The notes under the pieces were generated by a model. It worked only from the letters and a program-made list of their open reading frames with translations. It searched no databases and was not told where the DNA came from. The translations under genes and the position numbers were made by a program. From an uncultured Erythrobacter sp. (GTDB lineage: Bacteria; Pseudomonadota; Alphaproteobacteria; Sphingomonadales; Sphingomonadaceae): DNA of 64,000 bases. The DNA lies in contig CALBWA010000013.1 of NCBI GenBank assembly GCA_937969505.1, positions 62,001 to 126,000 on the forward strand, in the 5' to 3' direction. Within the stretch, counting starts at the first letter, position 1. Every line of letters starts with the position of its first letter. Shown here in pieces: positions 30,862-43,626 of this stretch.

Positions 30862-31872
30862 CTAAATATCGCCACCGGTCAGGCGCTGGCACACCAGATC
30901 CAGCTGGTCGAGCGTACGATAGCGGATTGTCACTGCACCCGAGCGCGGGTCTGCATCGGTCTTAATCCTGACGGTAAGGCCAAGAAATTCCTCAAGATGG
31001 GCCTGAACAGCAGCGATATCGGCGTCTTTGGTGGGGTCACGCGGCACTTTGGCCGATTTCACTTCCAGTTTTGCGCTAACATCACCATCCGTGGGACGGG
31101 CAAGCGTTTCAACGTCGCGGACCGAAAGCTGCTCTCGCACCGCCTGCTTGGCAAGTTTGATAGCATCATCATGGCCGATCAGCGCCCGCGCATGCCCCAT
31201 GGACAACGCGCCCTCCTCAACCATGTCGAGCACGGCATCAGGCAAGTTGAGCAATCGCTGGAGGTTCGCGACGTGACTACGGGATTTTTCGACCATGCGC
31301 GCGATATCGGCCTGGGTAAGCCCTTCTTCTTCACTCAACCGGTGATAGGCACGTGCCTCCTCAATCGGATTGAGATCTTCGCGCTGGATATTCTCGATCA
31401 GCGCCAATGCCATGACTTCGCGGTCCGTCAATTCACGGACAAGCGCTGGAATTTCATGCAGTTGCGCTTTCTGCGCAGCCCGCCAGCGGCGTTCACCGGC
31501 CACCAGCTGATACCGTCCATTACCGCGCGCGCGGACAATAATCGGCTGAATCACGCCGCGACTAGCGATTGAACTCGCCAGTTCGGCCAGCGCGGCCTCG
31601 TCAAACCGTTTGCGCGGTTGTCCCGGTAGGGGAGTAATCGCCGCTATAGGCAGTTGTGCAAGACCTGTGGTCACATGGGCGTGGTCATCGGATCGCGAAG
31701 GGATGGAGACACCTTCCTCCAATCCGCCCGTCTTCCCTGCAGCCTGTACGAGCGGTTCTTCCCGCCGTGTCTCTCCCAAAAGGGCGCCCAAGCCTTTGCC
31801 AAGCTTCTTCTTTTTGTCCGCAGCACTGCGAGAGGGTCCAGTGAACTGGATGGGATCGCTCGGATCGCTCAT
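30862..31872 (-). CDS. parB: Chromosome-partitioning protein ParB (Spo0J)
   Basis: The 336-residue CTPase binds parS and spreads to load SMC and engage ParA. The N-terminus has the lysine-rich GLGKGLGALLG peptide typical of the ParA-activating region. The ParB/Srx domain (ITPLPGQPRKRFDEAAL and the box II motif GERRWRAA) spans about 90-180. A helix-turn-helix (LTQADIARMVEKSRSHVANL) lies near 215. The C-terminal dimerisation domain follows. Its start overlaps the parA stop by four bases. Three matching parS sites lie within 4 kb upstream. Confidence 0.96.
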   Translation of the reverse strand: MSDPSDPIQFTGPSRSAADKKKKLGKGLGALLGETRREEPLVQAAGKTGGLEEGVSIPSRSDDHAHVTTGLAQLPIAAITPLPGQPRKRFDEAALAELASSIASRGVIQPIIVRARGNGRYQLVAGERRWRAAQKAQLHEIPALVRELTDREVMALALIENIQREDLNPIEEARAYHRLSEEEGLTQADIARMVEKSRSHVANLQRLLNLPDAVLDMVEEGALSMGHARALIGHDDAIKLAKQAVREQLSVRDVETLARPTDGDVSAKLEVKSAKVPRDPTKDADIAAVQAHLEEFLGLTVRIKTDADPRSGAVTIRYRTLDQLDLVCQRLTGGDI

Positions 31873-32645
31873 GCTGCCTTCCTTTGTGGTGGAATGCGTC
31901 CAATCAACTCGCGAGCCAGGCTGATGTAGGCCCTGCTCCCCGGACAAGAATGGTCATAAACAAGCGCCGGCAATCCATGGCTGGGTGCCTCTGACAAGCG
32001 CACATTGCGCGGAATGACGGTCTCAAACACAAGATTGCCGAGACAATCGCGAACATCATCAGCAACCTGATCTGTCAAACGGTTGCGGCGGTCAAACATA
32101 GTAAGAGTAACTCCAACGATACCCAGATCAGGGTTAAACCGCTGTTGTATGCGCTCAACCGTCTGCAAAAGCTGGCTTAATCCCTCCAGCGCAAAGAATT
32201 CGCATTGCAGGGGCACCAGCAACGTATCTGCTGCACAAAGCGCGTTGAGCGTCAGCAAACCGAGCGAGGGCGGGCAATCAATAAAGCAGATGTCGTGCCC
32301 GTGGTGCTGACCCAGCGCCTTGCCCAGACGCGCTGTTCGCTGTTCGACGGAGACAAGCTCCACCTCGGCGCCGCTAAGATCGACCGTAGCTGGCACCAGG
32401 TCGAGACCAGGAATGCTTGTCGGAACAATCGCTTGCGACAAGGGTGTCTCGTCAACCAGCACGTCGTAGCTCGACAGGCCTCGCGCTTCAGCGCCGACAC
32501 CCATGCCGGTCGAGGCGTTACCCTGAGGGTCAAGATCAATCAGCAGAGTGCGCCATCCGGTCGCCGCCATTGCAGTGGCAATATTGATGGCGGTCGTGGT
32601 TTTCCCCACCCCGCCCTTTTGATTGGCAATCGCAATAGTGATCAT
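31869..32645 (-). CDS. parA: Chromosome-partitioning ATPase ParA (Soj)
   Basis: The 258-residue deviant Walker ATPase has the P-loop KGGVGKTTT near residue 10, switch I DLDPQGNAST near 38 and Walker B FIDCPPSLG near 122. The short N-terminus without a DNA-binding extension identifies the chromosomal Soj type. It moves ParB-parS complexes toward the pole. It lies 34 bases after rsmG and overlaps parB. Confidence 0.97.
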   Translation of the reverse strand: MITIAIANQKGGVGKTTTAINIATAMAATGWRTLLIDLDPQGNASTGMGVGAEARGLSSYDVLVDETPLSQAIVPTSIPGLDLVPATVDLSGAEVELVSVEQRTARLGKALGQHHGHDICFIDCPPSLGLLTLNALCAADTLLVPLQCEFFALEGLSQLLQTVERIQQRFNPDLGIVGVTLTMFDRRNRLTDQVADDVRDCLGNLVFETVIPRNVRLSEAPSHGLPALVYDHSCPGSRAYISLARELIGRIPPQRKAA

Positions 32646-32679: not shown

Positions 32680-33303
32680 TCAACCTACAATGATGCCAGC
32701 ATCGGGATCGGTCAATGACTGTTCCACGTGGAACAATTTTCTCCGCCTCGCCGGCAGCTCTTGCAATTCTTGCGCCGCAGACCGCCCTTTCGGCAATACG
32801 TAGGTGGTTCTCTCTGTGGAAAATGGTGCGGATAAGTTCAGCAGCTTGGGTAGAGGGGCAAAAGCCCGAGCAGAAATGATTAAGGCAGGAAACGGTGCAA
32901 CCATCTCCAATCGCTTACCCTCAATCTCGCATTTGGATAGGCCCATCTCGTTTTTTGCCCGCTCCAGCCATTCCACCCTACGGCGTCGCGATTCCACAAG
33001 AATTACAGGCGTTTGGGGAAATATCGCTGAGATCACCAGACCTGGGAAGCCCGCACCTGTACCCAAATCCAACCAAGGGCCAGAAGGGGGCTCATTTGTT
33101 TCACGTGGAACAAATTTCAACAATTGAGCGCTGTCTGCAATATGCCGCTGCCACATGAATTGCTCAGACGGACGGGAAATGAGGTTTTGCCGCGAATTTT
33201 CATCAACAAGCAATTCGCACAGCAAATCAAGCCGCTTCATCCCATCATCATCGGTCAAATCGCCGACGAATCGCCGCGCGCTTGCTTCGTCATTGATCCT
33301 CAT
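32680..33303 (-). CDS. rsmG: 16S rRNA (guanine(527)-N7)-methyltransferase RsmG (GidB)
   Basis: The 207-residue SAM-dependent methyltransferase has motif [14 protein letters not shown] near residue 97 and the conserved [10 protein letters not shown] segment near 146. It methylates G527 of 16S rRNA; loss in other bacteria gives low-level streptomycin resistance. Two parS sites sit inside this gene, one encoding the C-terminal LFHVEQ and one encoding VPRET. The gene overlaps mnmG by four bases. Confidence 0.95.
32720..32735. other. parS site 1 (inside rsmG)
   Basis: TGTTCCACGTGGAACA is a perfect 16-bp palindrome and matches the bacterial consensus TGTTNCACGTGNAACA. It lies near the 3' end of rsmG, 75 bases upstream of the parA start. 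Confidence 0.95.
33097..33112. other. parS site 2 (inside rsmG)
   Basis: TGTTTCACGTGGAACA matches the consensus at all fixed positions. It lies 377 bases from site 1 within the middle of rsmG. Confidence 0.92.
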
Positions 33304-35156
33304 GCCGCTGCGGCGTGCCGTCGTTTGGCGTGAACGAGTAATGCCGACAGCGCAGCAGGGGTTATGCCGGCGATACGCCCGGCAGCTGCCAGATTGTGCG
33401 GTCGGGCAGCTGACAGGCGCTCAACCATTTCATTTGAAAGCCCCGGCACATCGGCGAAGGGGAAGTCATCACCCAGCAGCAAACGTTCCGAAGCCTTCAA
33501 ATCACGCAGTTCCGATTCCTGCCGAGCCAAATAGGGCGCGTATGCTGCATCTTCCGCCATTTCATCAGCCAATTCACGATTGGTGGTGACACGATCCGAC
33601 AGCCACGGGGCGAGCGCATCAATTGTTAGTCCATCGTGACGCAGCCATTCTGAAATGGACTTTTCCCCTCCGTCCCGACGGACAGGGAATCCATTATCGG
33701 CCAATTCCTTAGCTGCGACAGTTTGCGCAAATTCTTCGCTGATGCTTTTGCGGTGCTGGTCCCGATCTTCGAACCATTCGCGGCGCTCATGCCCGACGCA
33801 GCCAGCCGCAATTCCCAACGGTGTCAAGCGCGAAGACGCGTTGTTTGCACGCAGTCGCAAGCGGTACTCTGCCCGTGCTGTCAGCATTCTGTATGGCTCA
33901 CTAACTCCCTGAAGTGTCAAATCATCGACCATGACCGCGATATAGGAGTTTGACCGATCCAGTGCCGGAGCCTGACGGCCGGTGATCTTCGCTGCTGCAT
34001 GCAGTCCGGCAACCAGGCCCTGTGCGGCAGCTTCTTCATAACCAGTGGTGCCATTGATCTGCCCTGCACAATAAACGCCGGGAATGGCACGCAATTCCAG
34101 CGAATGGTCGAGTGCGCGCGGATCAATATGGTCATACTCAACAGCATAGCCTGGCACCTCCATCTTCACGTTCTCCAACCCCGGCATAGCCCGAAGCATG
34201 GTTTGCTGCACATCAACTGGCAGCGACGTGCTTATCCCGTTGGGATAGACAAAATGGGTGTCCAATCCCTCTGGCTCGAGAAAGACCTGATGTCCGTCGC
34301 GGTCACCAAAACGATGGATCTTGTCCTCGATCGACGGGCAATAGCGTGGCCCCATGGCGTCAATCGCTCCGCTAAATAGCGGAGAACGGTGTAAATTTGC
34401 CCGGATCGCGTCATGGGCACGCTCAGTAGTGCGAGTGATCGCGCAAAACACCTGCGGATTGGCGCGCTCGCGGTTTAATGGCGACATTGTCCAATGGTCG
34501 GCATCGCTGGGCTGTTCTTCGAGCGAAGCCCAATCGATCGTACGTCCATCCAGCCTTGGTGGCGTACCGGTCTTGAGCCGCGCCATCGGCAAATCAGCAT
34601 CGCGGAGCTGTTGCGCCAGCCTCTGGGCCGAATTCTCGCCGATCCGGCCACCTTCGAACCGCTCTTCACCGCGGAACAGTGTTCCGCCAAGAAATGTACC
34701 GGTACAGATGATAACAGCTTCGGCAGACAAGCGACTGCCATCACTCAATTCGAGCCCCGTCACACGCCCACCTGCGAGAACAAGGGCAGCCGCCTCACCC
34801 TCGATACAATCGAGATTTTTTTGTTGTGAGACAATATTCTGCACGTAGGCCTTGAACCGTTTTCGATCCGCCTGCACGCGCGGTCCCCACACCGCACTAC
34901 CCTTGCTTCGATTGAGCATGCGGTAATGAATTGCCCCTGCGTCAGCCGCTCGTCCGATCACACCATCGAGCGCATCTACCTCTCGCACCAAATGACCCTT
35001 GCCCAATCCACCAATTGCCGGATTGCAGCTCATCGCGCCGATTGCGGACAAATCAAAGCTGACCAATCCAACGCGCGCGCCCATTCGCGCTGCCGCACAG
35101 GCGGCTTCTACACCGGCGTGGCCACCGCCGATAACAAGGATGTCATAAGACTGCAT
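33300..35156 (-). CDS. mnmG: tRNA uridine-5-carboxymethylaminomethyl modification enzyme MnmG (GidA)
   Basis: The 618-residue FAD protein works with MnmE to add a carboxymethylaminomethyl group to U34 of certain tRNAs. The dinucleotide motif [10 protein letters not shown] is at residue 8. The conserved [23 protein letters not shown] segment and [22 protein letters not shown] near 360 are diagnostic. A C-terminal helical domain ends in ARRHAAAA-like Ala-rich residues. It is upstream of rsmG with a 4-base overlap and downstream of mnmE. Confidence 0.97.
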
Positions 35157-35241
35157 GGCGCAAGCAAATAGTCGACCGATGCAATATGGTCAAAGGGCTT
35201 TCACCATCCTTACGCTGCCTGTAGCGATTGAGTAGATCGAG

Positions 35242-35257
35242 TGTTCCACGTGAAACA
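35242..35257. other. parS site 3 (between mnmE and mnmG)
   Basis: TGTTCCACGTGAAACA matches the consensus TGTTNCACGTGNAACA. It lies in the 106-base gap between the mnmG start and the mnmE stop. Confidence 0.94.
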
Positions 35258-41438: not shown

Positions 41439-42458
41439 TCAGGCTCCCCGAACGCGTGCGACCAGCTGCTCGACATGCTCGATCGGAGTGAATTGGCCAA
41501 TGCCATGGCCCAGATTGAACACATGTGGACGCTCGGCAAAGGCACGCAGAATGTGATCAATTTGCGCATTCAGCGTCTCGCCCCCGGCCAACAGAAGCAG
41601 GGGATCAAGATTGCCCTGAACCGGCATGCCGTCGGGCAGGGCAGAATGCGCCCAGACCGGATCAACAGTTTCATCAAGACCCAGCGCATCCACCCCCGTC
41701 TCGCGAGCGTAGGCGGGCAATTTGGCTCCTGCACCCTTGGGAAATCCGATCACAGGCGTATCAGGATGGCTCTGCTTCACTGCAGCCGTGATCGCAGCAT
41801 TGGGCGCGATAACCCAGCGTTCAAATTCAGCCGGTGCCAGTGATCCGGCCCAGCTGTCAAACAATTGCACCGCCTCGGCCCCGGCATCGATCTGACCGCG
41901 CAGATAGGTAATCGTCACAGCGGTGATCGCATCAATGATGGCCTGGAATCGCGACGGGTCCTGATAAGCAAGAGCGCGGGTATCGTGCTGATCCTTGCTC
42001 CCCTCGCCCGCCACCATATAGGTCGCAACGGTCCATGGACTGCCGGCAAAACCCAGCATGGTCACATCATCGCCAATCATCTGCGTGCACAGACGCACCG
42101 TTTCATACACCGCATCGAACCGGCTGAATTGCTCGGTAAAATCCTCCAGCTTTGCCTCGACCAGCCTGGGGGACAGGCGCGGACCTTCTCCTGCAAGAAA
42201 TTTCAGGTGTTGACCCATGGCGTGGGGCACGATCAGAATATCGGAAAACAGGATTGCACCATCAAAACCGAACCGGCGCAAAGGTTGAACCGTCACCTCT
42301 GCCGCAGAGGGGCTGTCATAGACCAGATCGAGAAATCCGCCCTTCTCTGCCCGCAAGGCGCGATATTCGGGCAGATACCGCCCTGCCTGGCGCATCAACC
42401 ACATGGGTGCCTTTTCACCCTTGGTTCCGCGCAATGTATCGAGAAGCAAACCAGGCAT
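41439..42458 (-). CDS. hemE: Uroporphyrinogen decarboxylase
   Basis: The 339-residue enzyme converts uroporphyrinogen III to coproporphyrinogen III. The signature PMWLMRQAGRYLPEYR near residue 18 and the second motif GFAGSPWTVATYM near 140 are present. The open frame extends upstream into the AT-rich gap, but ATG at 42458 gives the normal start MPGLLLDTLRG. In other alphaproteobacteria hemE flanks the replication origin. Confidence 0.96.
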   Translation of the reverse strand: MPGLLLDTLRGTKGEKAPMWLMRQAGRYLPEYRALRAEKGGFLDLVYDSPSAAEVTVQPLRRFGFDGAILFSDILIVPHAMGQHLKFLAGEGPRLSPRLVEAKLEDFTEQFSRFDAVYETVRLCTQMIGDDVTMLGFAGSPWTVATYMVAGEGSKDQHDTRALAYQDPSRFQAIIDAITAVTITYLRGQIDAGAEAVQLFDSWAGSLAPAEFERWVIAPNAAITAAVKQSHPDTPVIGFPKGAGAKLPAYARETGVDALGLDETVDPVWAHSALPDGMPVQGNLDPLLLLAGGETLNAQIDHILRAFAERPHVFNLGHGIGQFTPIEHVEQLVARVRGA

Positions 42459-42780
42459 CGGTATGGTCCAATCAATATAATATATATATTTATAAGAGTT
42501 GTTGGTGTTTGTTGGCCCTGTGGATTTCGGGGACAAGCGGCCACTGCCCGATTTCTCCCGATTTGAGAAGGGATTTGCGCAAAGCGAATCGCGGGTCTGC
42601 TTGAGTCGAGCAAAACTTATCCCGCTTGTCCCCAGCCTGTCGACAACACCGGTTCGATGGTGACAAGACGCGGTGAACAGGACTCGTTCCGGGCATGGAA
42701 TTCATCCCCGATCTTGTCGCCAGACCTGTCCCGTGGTTTATGCCCCTTGTTTCCACAAGCCGGATAGTGCCCAAAACCTC
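42459..42780. other. Candidate chromosome replication origin (oriC)
   Basis: This 322-base gap is the longest in the window and lies between hemE (minus) and ppsR (plus). In Caulobacter and Rickettsia the origin lies between hemE and a DUF299/RP001-type gene. An AT run at 42471-42495 could be the unwinding element. Degenerate DnaA-box-like 9-mers (match to TTATNCACA) are TTGTCCCCA at 42626-42634, GTTTCCACA at 42749-42757, and TGTGGATTT at 42519-42527 on the other strand. TTATCCCGC lies at 42617-42625. GANTC sites are at 42586, 42603 and 42681. This is inference from context and motifs. Confidence 0.65.
42471..42495. other. AT-rich run, candidate DNA unwinding element
   Basis: The stretch contains only two C/G bases in 25 and alternates AT steps (ATATAATATATATATTTATA). 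It is far more AT-rich than the rest of the window. It lies 13 bases from the hemE start and could alternatively serve as a promoter -10 region for hemE. Confidence 0.5.
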
Positions 42781-43626
42781 ATGAACCGTCTGCATTTGCA
42801 TCTAGTCTCGGACTCCACCGGCGAAACGCTGGAAATGATCGCCAAGGCGGCGCTTGCCCAGTTCGAAGATGCCAATGTCGTGCGCCATTTTTGGCCGATG
42901 GTGCGCTCGCGTCAACATCTCGACCGGATTGTCCCCGATCTGGCGGCAAGCCCGGGTTTGGTGCTGTTCACTTTGGTGAATGCTGAAACTCGCGCCCGGC
43001 TGGAAGAACACTGCCGCCAACTGGGTTTGCCTGCCGTGCCCGCTCTTGATGCCGTCACCGCTGCGCTGGAATCGCAATTGGGGCAAGAGGCGCATGGCCG
43101 GCCCGGCCGCCAGCATTTGATGGACGAGGCTTATTTCAAGCGGGTCGAGGCGATCCAGTTTACCATTGCCCATGATGACGGCATCGGATGGGAGAACTGG
43201 GAAGAGGCTGACATTGTTCTGGCGGGCGTTTCGCGCAGTTCGAAAACGCCGACCAGCATTTATCTGGCCAATCGCGGTTATAAGGTCGCCAATATCCCGC
43301 TGGTGGTGGAGAGCCCCCCACCCCAGGCGCTTTATGGTCTGCGTCATCCTCTGGTGGTCGGTCTGACTACCGCGCCTGAACGGCTGGTACAGATCCGCCG
43401 CAACCGCTTGCTTTCGCTGAACGAAGGCACCGAAACCTCTTATGTCGACAACGAAAGAGTGCGTAACGAGGTGCAGTTCGCGCGCAGGATGTTTGCCGAC
43501 AATGGCTGGCCCGTGATTGATGTAACGCGCCGCTCGATCGAGGAGAGTGCGGCCGCGATTATTCGTCTGGTGCAGGAACGCAATCGGCAGGACAAACCGG
43601 TCGACGGAACGGCAAAACCAATATGA
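42781..43626 (+). CDS. ppsR: Pyruvate, phosphate dikinase/PEP synthase regulatory protein (DUF299)
   Basis: The 281-residue bifunctional kinase/pyrophosphorylase uses ADP to inactivate, and phosphate to reactivate, PEP synthase or pyruvate phosphate dikinase. The motif GVSRSSKTPTSIYLANRG near residue 153 is the P-loop-like signature, and the N-terminus HLVSDSTGET is conserved. The target enzyme is not in the window. It opens an operon that runs rightward from the candidate origin. Confidence 0.94.
   Translation: MNRLHLHLVSDSTGETLEMIAKAALAQFEDANVVRHFWPMVRSRQHLDRIVPDLAASPGLVLFTLVNAETRARLEEHCRQLGLPAVPALDAVTAALESQLGQEAHGRPGRQHLMDEAYFKRVEAIQFTIAHDDGIGWENWEEADIVLAGVSRSSKTPTSIYLANRGYKVANIPLVVESPPPQALYGLRHPLVVGLTTAPERLVQIRRNRLLSLNEGTETSYVDNERVRNEVQFARRMFADNGWPVIDVTRRSIEESAAAIIRLVQERNRQDKPVDGTAKPI

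Follow-up and report, generated by a model that had tools for sequence, protein, structure and literature searches.

Where does replication of the chromosome start in the Erythrobacter group? The first-pass annotation had placed a candidate origin between hemE and ppsR in the window, which is the whole 64-kb stretch analysed here (G000:C13:62001–126000, from a genome of 2.57 Mb in 43 contigs). The region it marked matched exactly the 322-bp gap between the divergent hemE and ppsR genes (Table 1). Computation of the gap anatomy, its conservation, the enrichment of DnaA-like boxes and the skew switch in relatives, together with parABS nearby, supported this proposal. The gap was very probably the chromosomal origin, oriC (probability about 0.94).

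Gene context and conservation of the gap

The genes hemJ, rho, mnmE, mnmG, rsmG (GidB), parA and parB were found to the left of the gap with a few other ORFs interspersed, and maf, aroE, coaE and dnaQ to the right. The gap had been described as the only large one in the window, which was overstated: a mechanical ORF pass left other uncovered stretches of 292, 254, 247, 220, 219 and 203 bp. The same pass gave the hemE–ppsR gap just 136 bp, because spurious ORFs covered both of its ends.

The genes parA and parB and three parS-like palindromes were 7–12 kb from the gap. The palindromes were called against the parS consensus, and shuffling the window 100 times never produced three. Of the three sites (32721–35256), two were within rsmG and one was between mnmG and mnmE.

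Table 1. Features of the hemE–ppsR gap and its surroundings (positions in the window).
Feature	Position	Strand	Basis
parB	30862–31872	-	TIGR00180, 191.1 bits, cut-off 58.45
parA	31869–32645	-	PF13614 and PF01656 above cut-offs; ParA name from position beside parB
parS-like palindrome, 2 mismatches	32721–32734		match to parS consensus
parS-like palindrome, 1 mismatch	33098–33111		match to parS consensus
parS-like palindrome, 1 mismatch	35243–35256		match to parS consensus
hemE, uroporphyrinogen decarboxylase	41439–42458	-	TIGR01464, 382.9 bits, cut-off 302.95
hemE–ppsR intergenic region, proposed oriC	42459–42780		junction and block conservation, DnaA-like box enrichment, skew in relatives
AT-rich stretch adjoining hemE, proposed DNA unwinding element	42470–42499		AT content; also AT-rich in displayed alignment rows
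DnaA-like box 1, AAATCCACA, inside near-invariant stretch around GTTGGCCCTGTGGA (42511–42524)	42519–42527	-	box scan and alignment
Weak DnaA-like site CTTGTCCCC (minus-strand reading)	42529–42537	-	box scan
Conserved block CCCGATTTCTCCCG	42547–42560	+	alignment
GANTC, CcrM-type site	42586–42590		GANTC in 79/79 aligned gaps
GANTC site (GAGTC)	42603–42607		GANTC at column in 39/79 gaps
Two adjacent DnaA-like sites TTATCCCG, TTGTCCCCA, running into conserved CAGCCTGT	42616–42634	+	box scan and alignment
CTGTCGACAA, weak DnaA-like site, minus strand TTGTCGACA	42637–42646		box scan
Weak DnaA-like site CTTGTCACC (minus-strand reading)	42659–42667	-	box scan
GANTC site (GACTC)	42681–42685		GANTC at column in 31/79 gaps
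CTTGTCG, then near-invariant block TCCCGTGGTTTATGC	42713–42743	+	alignment, fixed spacing
DnaA-like box GTTTCCACA near ppsR	42749–42757	+	box scan and alignment
ppsR/DUF299-type PPDK/PEP-synthase regulator	42781–43626	+	NF003742, 331.9 bits, cut-off 225

Conservation of the gap in relatives, a check proposed with the candidate, was observed. Parsing recovered the junction in 78 of 80 relatives, which were the best 80 of 571 loci in a scan of GTDB genomes. In the two unparsed relatives, L078 showed the junction by eye, and the contig of L006 ended inside the gap. The 78 relatives and the window gave 79 aligned gaps with lengths of 315–386 bp. One base held at least 90% of the weight in 94 of the 328 aligned window columns (6 of the 94 being the two start codons), and the median pairwise identity among 65 non-redundant gaps was 0.55.

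Conservation across the Alphaproteobacteria was also investigated. A PpsR match was obtained in 251 of 385 class genomes sampled, and 69 loci were selected among the matches listed (the 30 best-scoring and 39 hand-picked on the plus strand). In this selection, a HemE motif lay across the gap in 56 loci; 5 had PpsR without HemE in the stretch covered, and in 8 the PpsR anchor motif was not read. At least one GANTC was present in 52 of these 56 gaps, at least two TNTCCMCA in 33, and GAKTCG in 29. Two loci of one genus, g84 (L299 and L300), had a motif-parsed gap of about 1.6 kb, whereas the remaining 54 junction loci had 280–1040 bp; possible causes are an inserted gene, a motif matched by chance or a wrongly called start. 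Two PpsR matches of genus g12 (G017:C1:3605837–3606637 and G151:C1:182082–182879) carried one in-frame TAG each.

Sequence elements of the gap

The AT-rich end of the gap had been reported correctly. The 30 bp at 42470–42499, on the hemE side, were 90% AT, and no other 30-bp window in the 64 kb equalled this value.

All three DnaA-box-like 9-mers of the first-pass annotation were present: AAATCCACA at 42519–42527 (minus strand), TTGTCCCCA at 42626–42634 and GTTTCCACA at 42749–42757. Each had 2 mismatches from TTATCCACA. The gap contained 4 sites with at most 2 mismatches from TTATCCACA, compared with 0.56 expected from the density in the window, and 2 of 300 Markov shuffles of the gap reached 4. 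No site with at most 1 mismatch fell within the gap, and the 64-kb window as a whole had 4. The pattern TTWTNCACA with 1 mismatch gave 1 gap site, which was at chance level (119 of 300 shuffles), and TTNTCCMCA with 1 mismatch gave 7 gap sites, compared with 0.42 expected, with no shuffle of 300 giving as many. The DnaA-like boxes of the window itself are weak and degenerate, yet enriched.

Boxes were also enriched across relatives. TNTCCMCA was found 216 times in the 25,988 bp of 78 gaps (8.31/kb) and 81 times in 946,406 bp of flanking sequence (0.09/kb); its density in the flank intergenic DNA of relatives was 0.15/kb. The count in the gap exceeded that of all flank windows in 74 of the 78 loci. 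Among the gap-length windows of 1,880 kb sampled across four relatives, none had as many of these boxes as the gap of its own genome. In the 64-kb window, at least three GANTC together with at least two TNTCCMCA occurred only in gap-sized windows starting at 42429–42603, all of which overlapped the gap.

The blocks kept among the 79 gaps were the AT-rich stretch, GTTGGCCCTGTGGA with box 1, TGCCCGATTTCTCCC, the tandem TTATCCC-TGTCCCCAGCCTGT, CTTGTCG, TCCCGTGGTTTATGC and TCCACA. The spacing from TTGT to GTTTAT was 22 nt in 76 of 79 gaps, and TCCACA or TCAACA followed GTTTAT by 16–17 nt in 73 of 79. The pair CTTGTCG...GTTTAT with TCCCGTGGTTTATGC may be the ppsR promoter, and therefore origin and promoter probably overlap.

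The block TCCCGTGGTTTATGC (42729–42743) is not a DnaA box; it could belong to the ppsR promoter or be recognised by an origin-binding protein. The exact 15-mer was found in 22 of 64 genomes of family f1 and in 0 of 83 others in the order sample; G127 was the one genome outside f1 that carried it in the class sample. It was located between the HemE and PpsR motifs in 10 of 10 loci examined. The block was also tried as a regulon motif. A 17-mer with at most 3 mismatches hit 3 places in the genome, compared with 7 for a reversed control pattern, and a near-match by gcrA fell within a long ORF. The regulon reading was rejected.

Sites for other regulators were searched. IHF-like sites were absent from the 78 relatives' gaps. 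The full CtrA site TTAAN7TTAA occurred in neither the 78 relatives' gaps nor the window's gap, where degenerate sites may remain, and the half-site TTAACC/GGTTAA occurred once in all 78 gaps. A CtrA-type match was present in 7 of the 56 class-wide gaps. The lack of a full CtrA box agrees with the account of PMC8116508 that neither growth nor viability of Sphingomonas melonis suffers from the loss of ctrA.

GANTC sites in the gap

GANTC was counted 342 times in the 79 gaps, at 13.0/kb compared with 1.98/kb in flanks, an enrichment of about 6.6-fold in which related sequences are counted repeatedly. The density in flank intergenic DNA was 1.74/kb (59,606 bp), and the Markov expectation for the 79 gaps was 110.6 (sd 8.4, 20 shuffles). 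The window's genome encoded both CcrM (512.4 bits to CcrMI 6pbd) and GcrA (PF07750). In another genome, the CcrM match G087:C64:3955–5070 had one in-frame TGA.

The site at 42586–42590 is a CcrM-type GANTC that was unchanged across every related gap compared, and this is the new detail of the gap. No report of an invariant GANTC/GcrA-type site in the gap of this lineage was found in the open-access literature. The centre base was A in 40, C in 38 and G in 1 of the 79 gaps (A 36, C 28 and G 1 in the 65 non-redundant gaps). Read on the minus strand together with the preceding C, the site was GAKTCG, the GcrA core, in 77 of 79 gaps. A further column, 42505, had GANTC in 56 of 79 gaps and none in the window.

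GcrA is described as binding methylated GANTC and is a proposed activator of promoters with YGAKTCK/YGAKTCG (PMC7987155). Our hypothesis from the site pattern is that CcrM methylates the invariant GANTC and that this mark, perhaps with GcrA as its reader, tunes either initiation or the transcription that crosses the origin. A more specific scheme was considered rather unlikely. It would define an Erythrobacteraceae-type oriC with an invariant GAKTCG-core CcrM/GcrA-type site, extra GANTC and no full CtrA box. Hemimethylation after fork passage, read by GcrA or another protein, would time re-initiation or hemE-directed transcription, and methylation timing would replace CtrA control.

The GANTC enrichment may instead be a by-product, arising from common descent together with other conserved motifs rather than from methylation control, a reading given a little less than an even chance; it concerns the methylation inference and not the origin call. 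Class-wide, the GANTC density of the gap was independent of CcrM, at 4.79/kb in the 6 genomes that lacked a full-length match and 5.83/kb in the 50 that had one. The gaps of L268, L313 and L315 had no GANTC, although all three came from genomes with full-length CcrM matches. Among seven control pentamers, AGNCT was raised too (7.49/kb in gaps compared with 2.28), probably because of the conserved AGCCT. The 3 GANTC of the window's gap are not rare, with at least 3 in 1410 of 63679 gap-sized windows, and the 2 in the gap of E. rubeus are likewise not rare. The full GcrA motif YGAKTCG was present at 42586–42590 in just 33 of 79 gaps, including the window, and was not kept across relatives. In Caulobacter, initiation control is described as normal after ccrM deletion (PMC3973325).

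Against the by-product reading, the genome encodes both CcrM and GcrA, and the changes at 42586–42590 go beyond shared ancestry alone. On a tree of the flanking coding DNA, parsimony assigned 15 changes to the centre base (shuffled mean 27), compared with 0 at the other four bases. On the same tree, the median gap column had 13 changes, and 39 of 313 columns had 0.

Strand skew, origin assignment and known systems

Strand composition was investigated in relatives. Raw GC skew in 20-kb pieces was too noisy by eye, and therefore third-position GC skew per gene was fitted with gene strand as a covariate and an origin–terminus pair. In E. rubeus (G007), fitted on 590 genes from 34 pieces of 20 kb, the best grid point was 2,680 kb, compared with 2,677 kb for the gap, at a resolution of about 20 kb. 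No other grid point came within 2 lnL, and 0 of 300 permutations were as good. The position of dnaA was 15.1 lnL below the best point and 14.9 below the gap. In G001 (PpsR 96% identical; among the two closest relatives fetched), the gap was 0.78 lnL above every grid point, and dnaA was 5.4 lnL below the best grid point and 6.2 below the gap; other places within 2 lnL of that grid point spanned 1,640 to 1,800 kb. The resolution near the gap was sharper in these two genomes because sampling was denser there.

The signal was broader in three further relatives. The gap was 0.0 lnL below the best in G003, with dnaA 6.0 below and 14 of 300 permutations as good. In G008, where the interval was broad and 7 of 300 permutations fitted equally well, the gap was 0.7 lnL below the best, and dnaA was 2.6 below the best and 1.9 below the gap. 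In G005, the gap was 1.93 lnL below the best point, which lay 263 kb from the gap (15 of 300 permutations as good), and dnaA was 6.5 lnL below the best and 4.6 below the gap. The skew switch at the gap was thus sharp in G007, best in G001, and compatible but broad in G003, G005 and G008.

A skew switch elsewhere had been named as evidence against the candidate. The gap was best or within 2 lnL in all five relatives, but the window's own contig (170 genes, weak signal) preferred a break at 66 kb, with the gap at 104.5 kb 4.1–4.5 lnL lower. This break is about 38 kb left of the gap, and by itself the contig gave no support for the gap. The local break at about 66 kb of the contig (about 4 kb in the window) is perhaps a local rearrangement or noise.

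An origin beside dnaA was not indicated. In the window's genome, dnaA was on a different contig, C24; in the five relatives it was 381–428 kb from the gap (the G007 figure assuming circular closure), and it fitted the skew worse than the gap in 5 of 5. These fits bear on the possibility that the gap is only the divergent hemE/ppsR promoter region, conserved for transcription control, with the origin elsewhere, for example at dnaA. This was considered very improbable. CTTGTCG and GTTTAT do have a fixed, promoter-like spacing, TCCCGTGGTTTATGC may belong to a ppsR promoter, and GcrA activates promoters carrying its site (PMC7987155). However, this reading leaves the roughly 90-fold enrichment of DnaA-like boxes, the extreme AT block, the nearby parABS and the skew switch unexplained. 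A consensus sigma-70-like promoter and terminator scan, which covers E. coli-type promoters only, gave 0 sites, and one region can serve as origin and promoter together. Still less probable was an origin close to the gap but not in it (somewhere between hemE and parB, for instance), with the gap as an auxiliary DnaA-binding region: the limited skew resolution (about 20 kb in G007) and the leftward break of the own contig would allow it, but the extreme AT stretch sits within the gap, the joint clustering of GANTC and TNTCCMCA is confined to windows overlapping it, and the Caulobacter origin is at hemE (PMC8959179; Brassinga 2001 as cited in PMC4741004).

The gap as oriC is therefore the preferred reading, and DnaA binding, melting and initiation there are most likely by analogy with Cori of Caulobacter crescentus. 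DnaA would bind box 1 on the left of the gap and several further DnaA-like boxes, most of them weak, in its middle and right parts. Its assembly would open the AT-rich 42470–42499 beside hemE, and replication would proceed both ways from the gap. ParB on the nearby parS-like sites would segregate the new origins. The probable origin in the Erythrobacter group is thereby narrowed to 322 bp, which can be used for metagenome replication-rate estimates (peak-to-trough), genome orientation and plasmid building. With the invariant GANTC, the idea that methylation acts at a DnaA-type origin in Alphaproteobacteria becomes concrete and testable.

The oriC of Escherichia coli is alike in outline, with DnaA boxes, an AT-rich unwinding element and clustered methylation sites. 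It differs in gene context and in using GATC, Dam and SeqA, compared with GANTC and CcrM here; we know of no sequestration protein for GANTC/CcrM.

Other counterparts are within the Alphaproteobacteria. Cori, like the gap, is beside hemE and has an AT-rich region, mostly weak DnaA boxes and several GANTC (PMC8959179, PMC4468827, PMC3973325); several GANTC motifs are described for the C. crescentus origin and close relatives (PMC3973325). Cori has 5 full CtrA boxes (PMC8959179), whereas the window and the 78 relatives' gaps have none. For Cori's origin RNA, CcnA, an Rfam search of 42300–42950 gave no match up to E 1, which is informative only if Rfam includes CcnA. The first-pass annotation had placed the Caulobacter and Rickettsia origins at the same junction, and Brassinga 2001 is cited for hemE-side origins in both (PMC4741004). 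The annotation's remark that a precise origin is not usually annotated was fair in part, but DoriC predicts an origin near hemE for most Sphingomonadaceae (PMC4741004). Sphingopyxis granuli TFA and other Sphingomonadaceae have a predicted oriC that resembles the gap: it is near hemE, the organisation of its genes and its DnaA boxes are conserved, and it has a putative unwinding element (PMC4741004). In the part of PMC4741004 describing the TFA origin, which was compared by description only, no GANTC or GcrA-type site is mentioned.

At ori2 (repABC) of Agrobacterium tumefaciens, GANTC motifs also overlap the origin and initiation is linked to methylation (PMC11514494). This origin differs in being a RepC-dependent second origin, not a DnaA-dependent hemE-type one, and ori1 of the same species is described as not visibly affected by CcrM depletion (PMC11514494). 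Hence both the hemE-side kind of origin and GANTC at origins were already known from these descriptions (PMC4741004, PMC3973325, PMC11514494).
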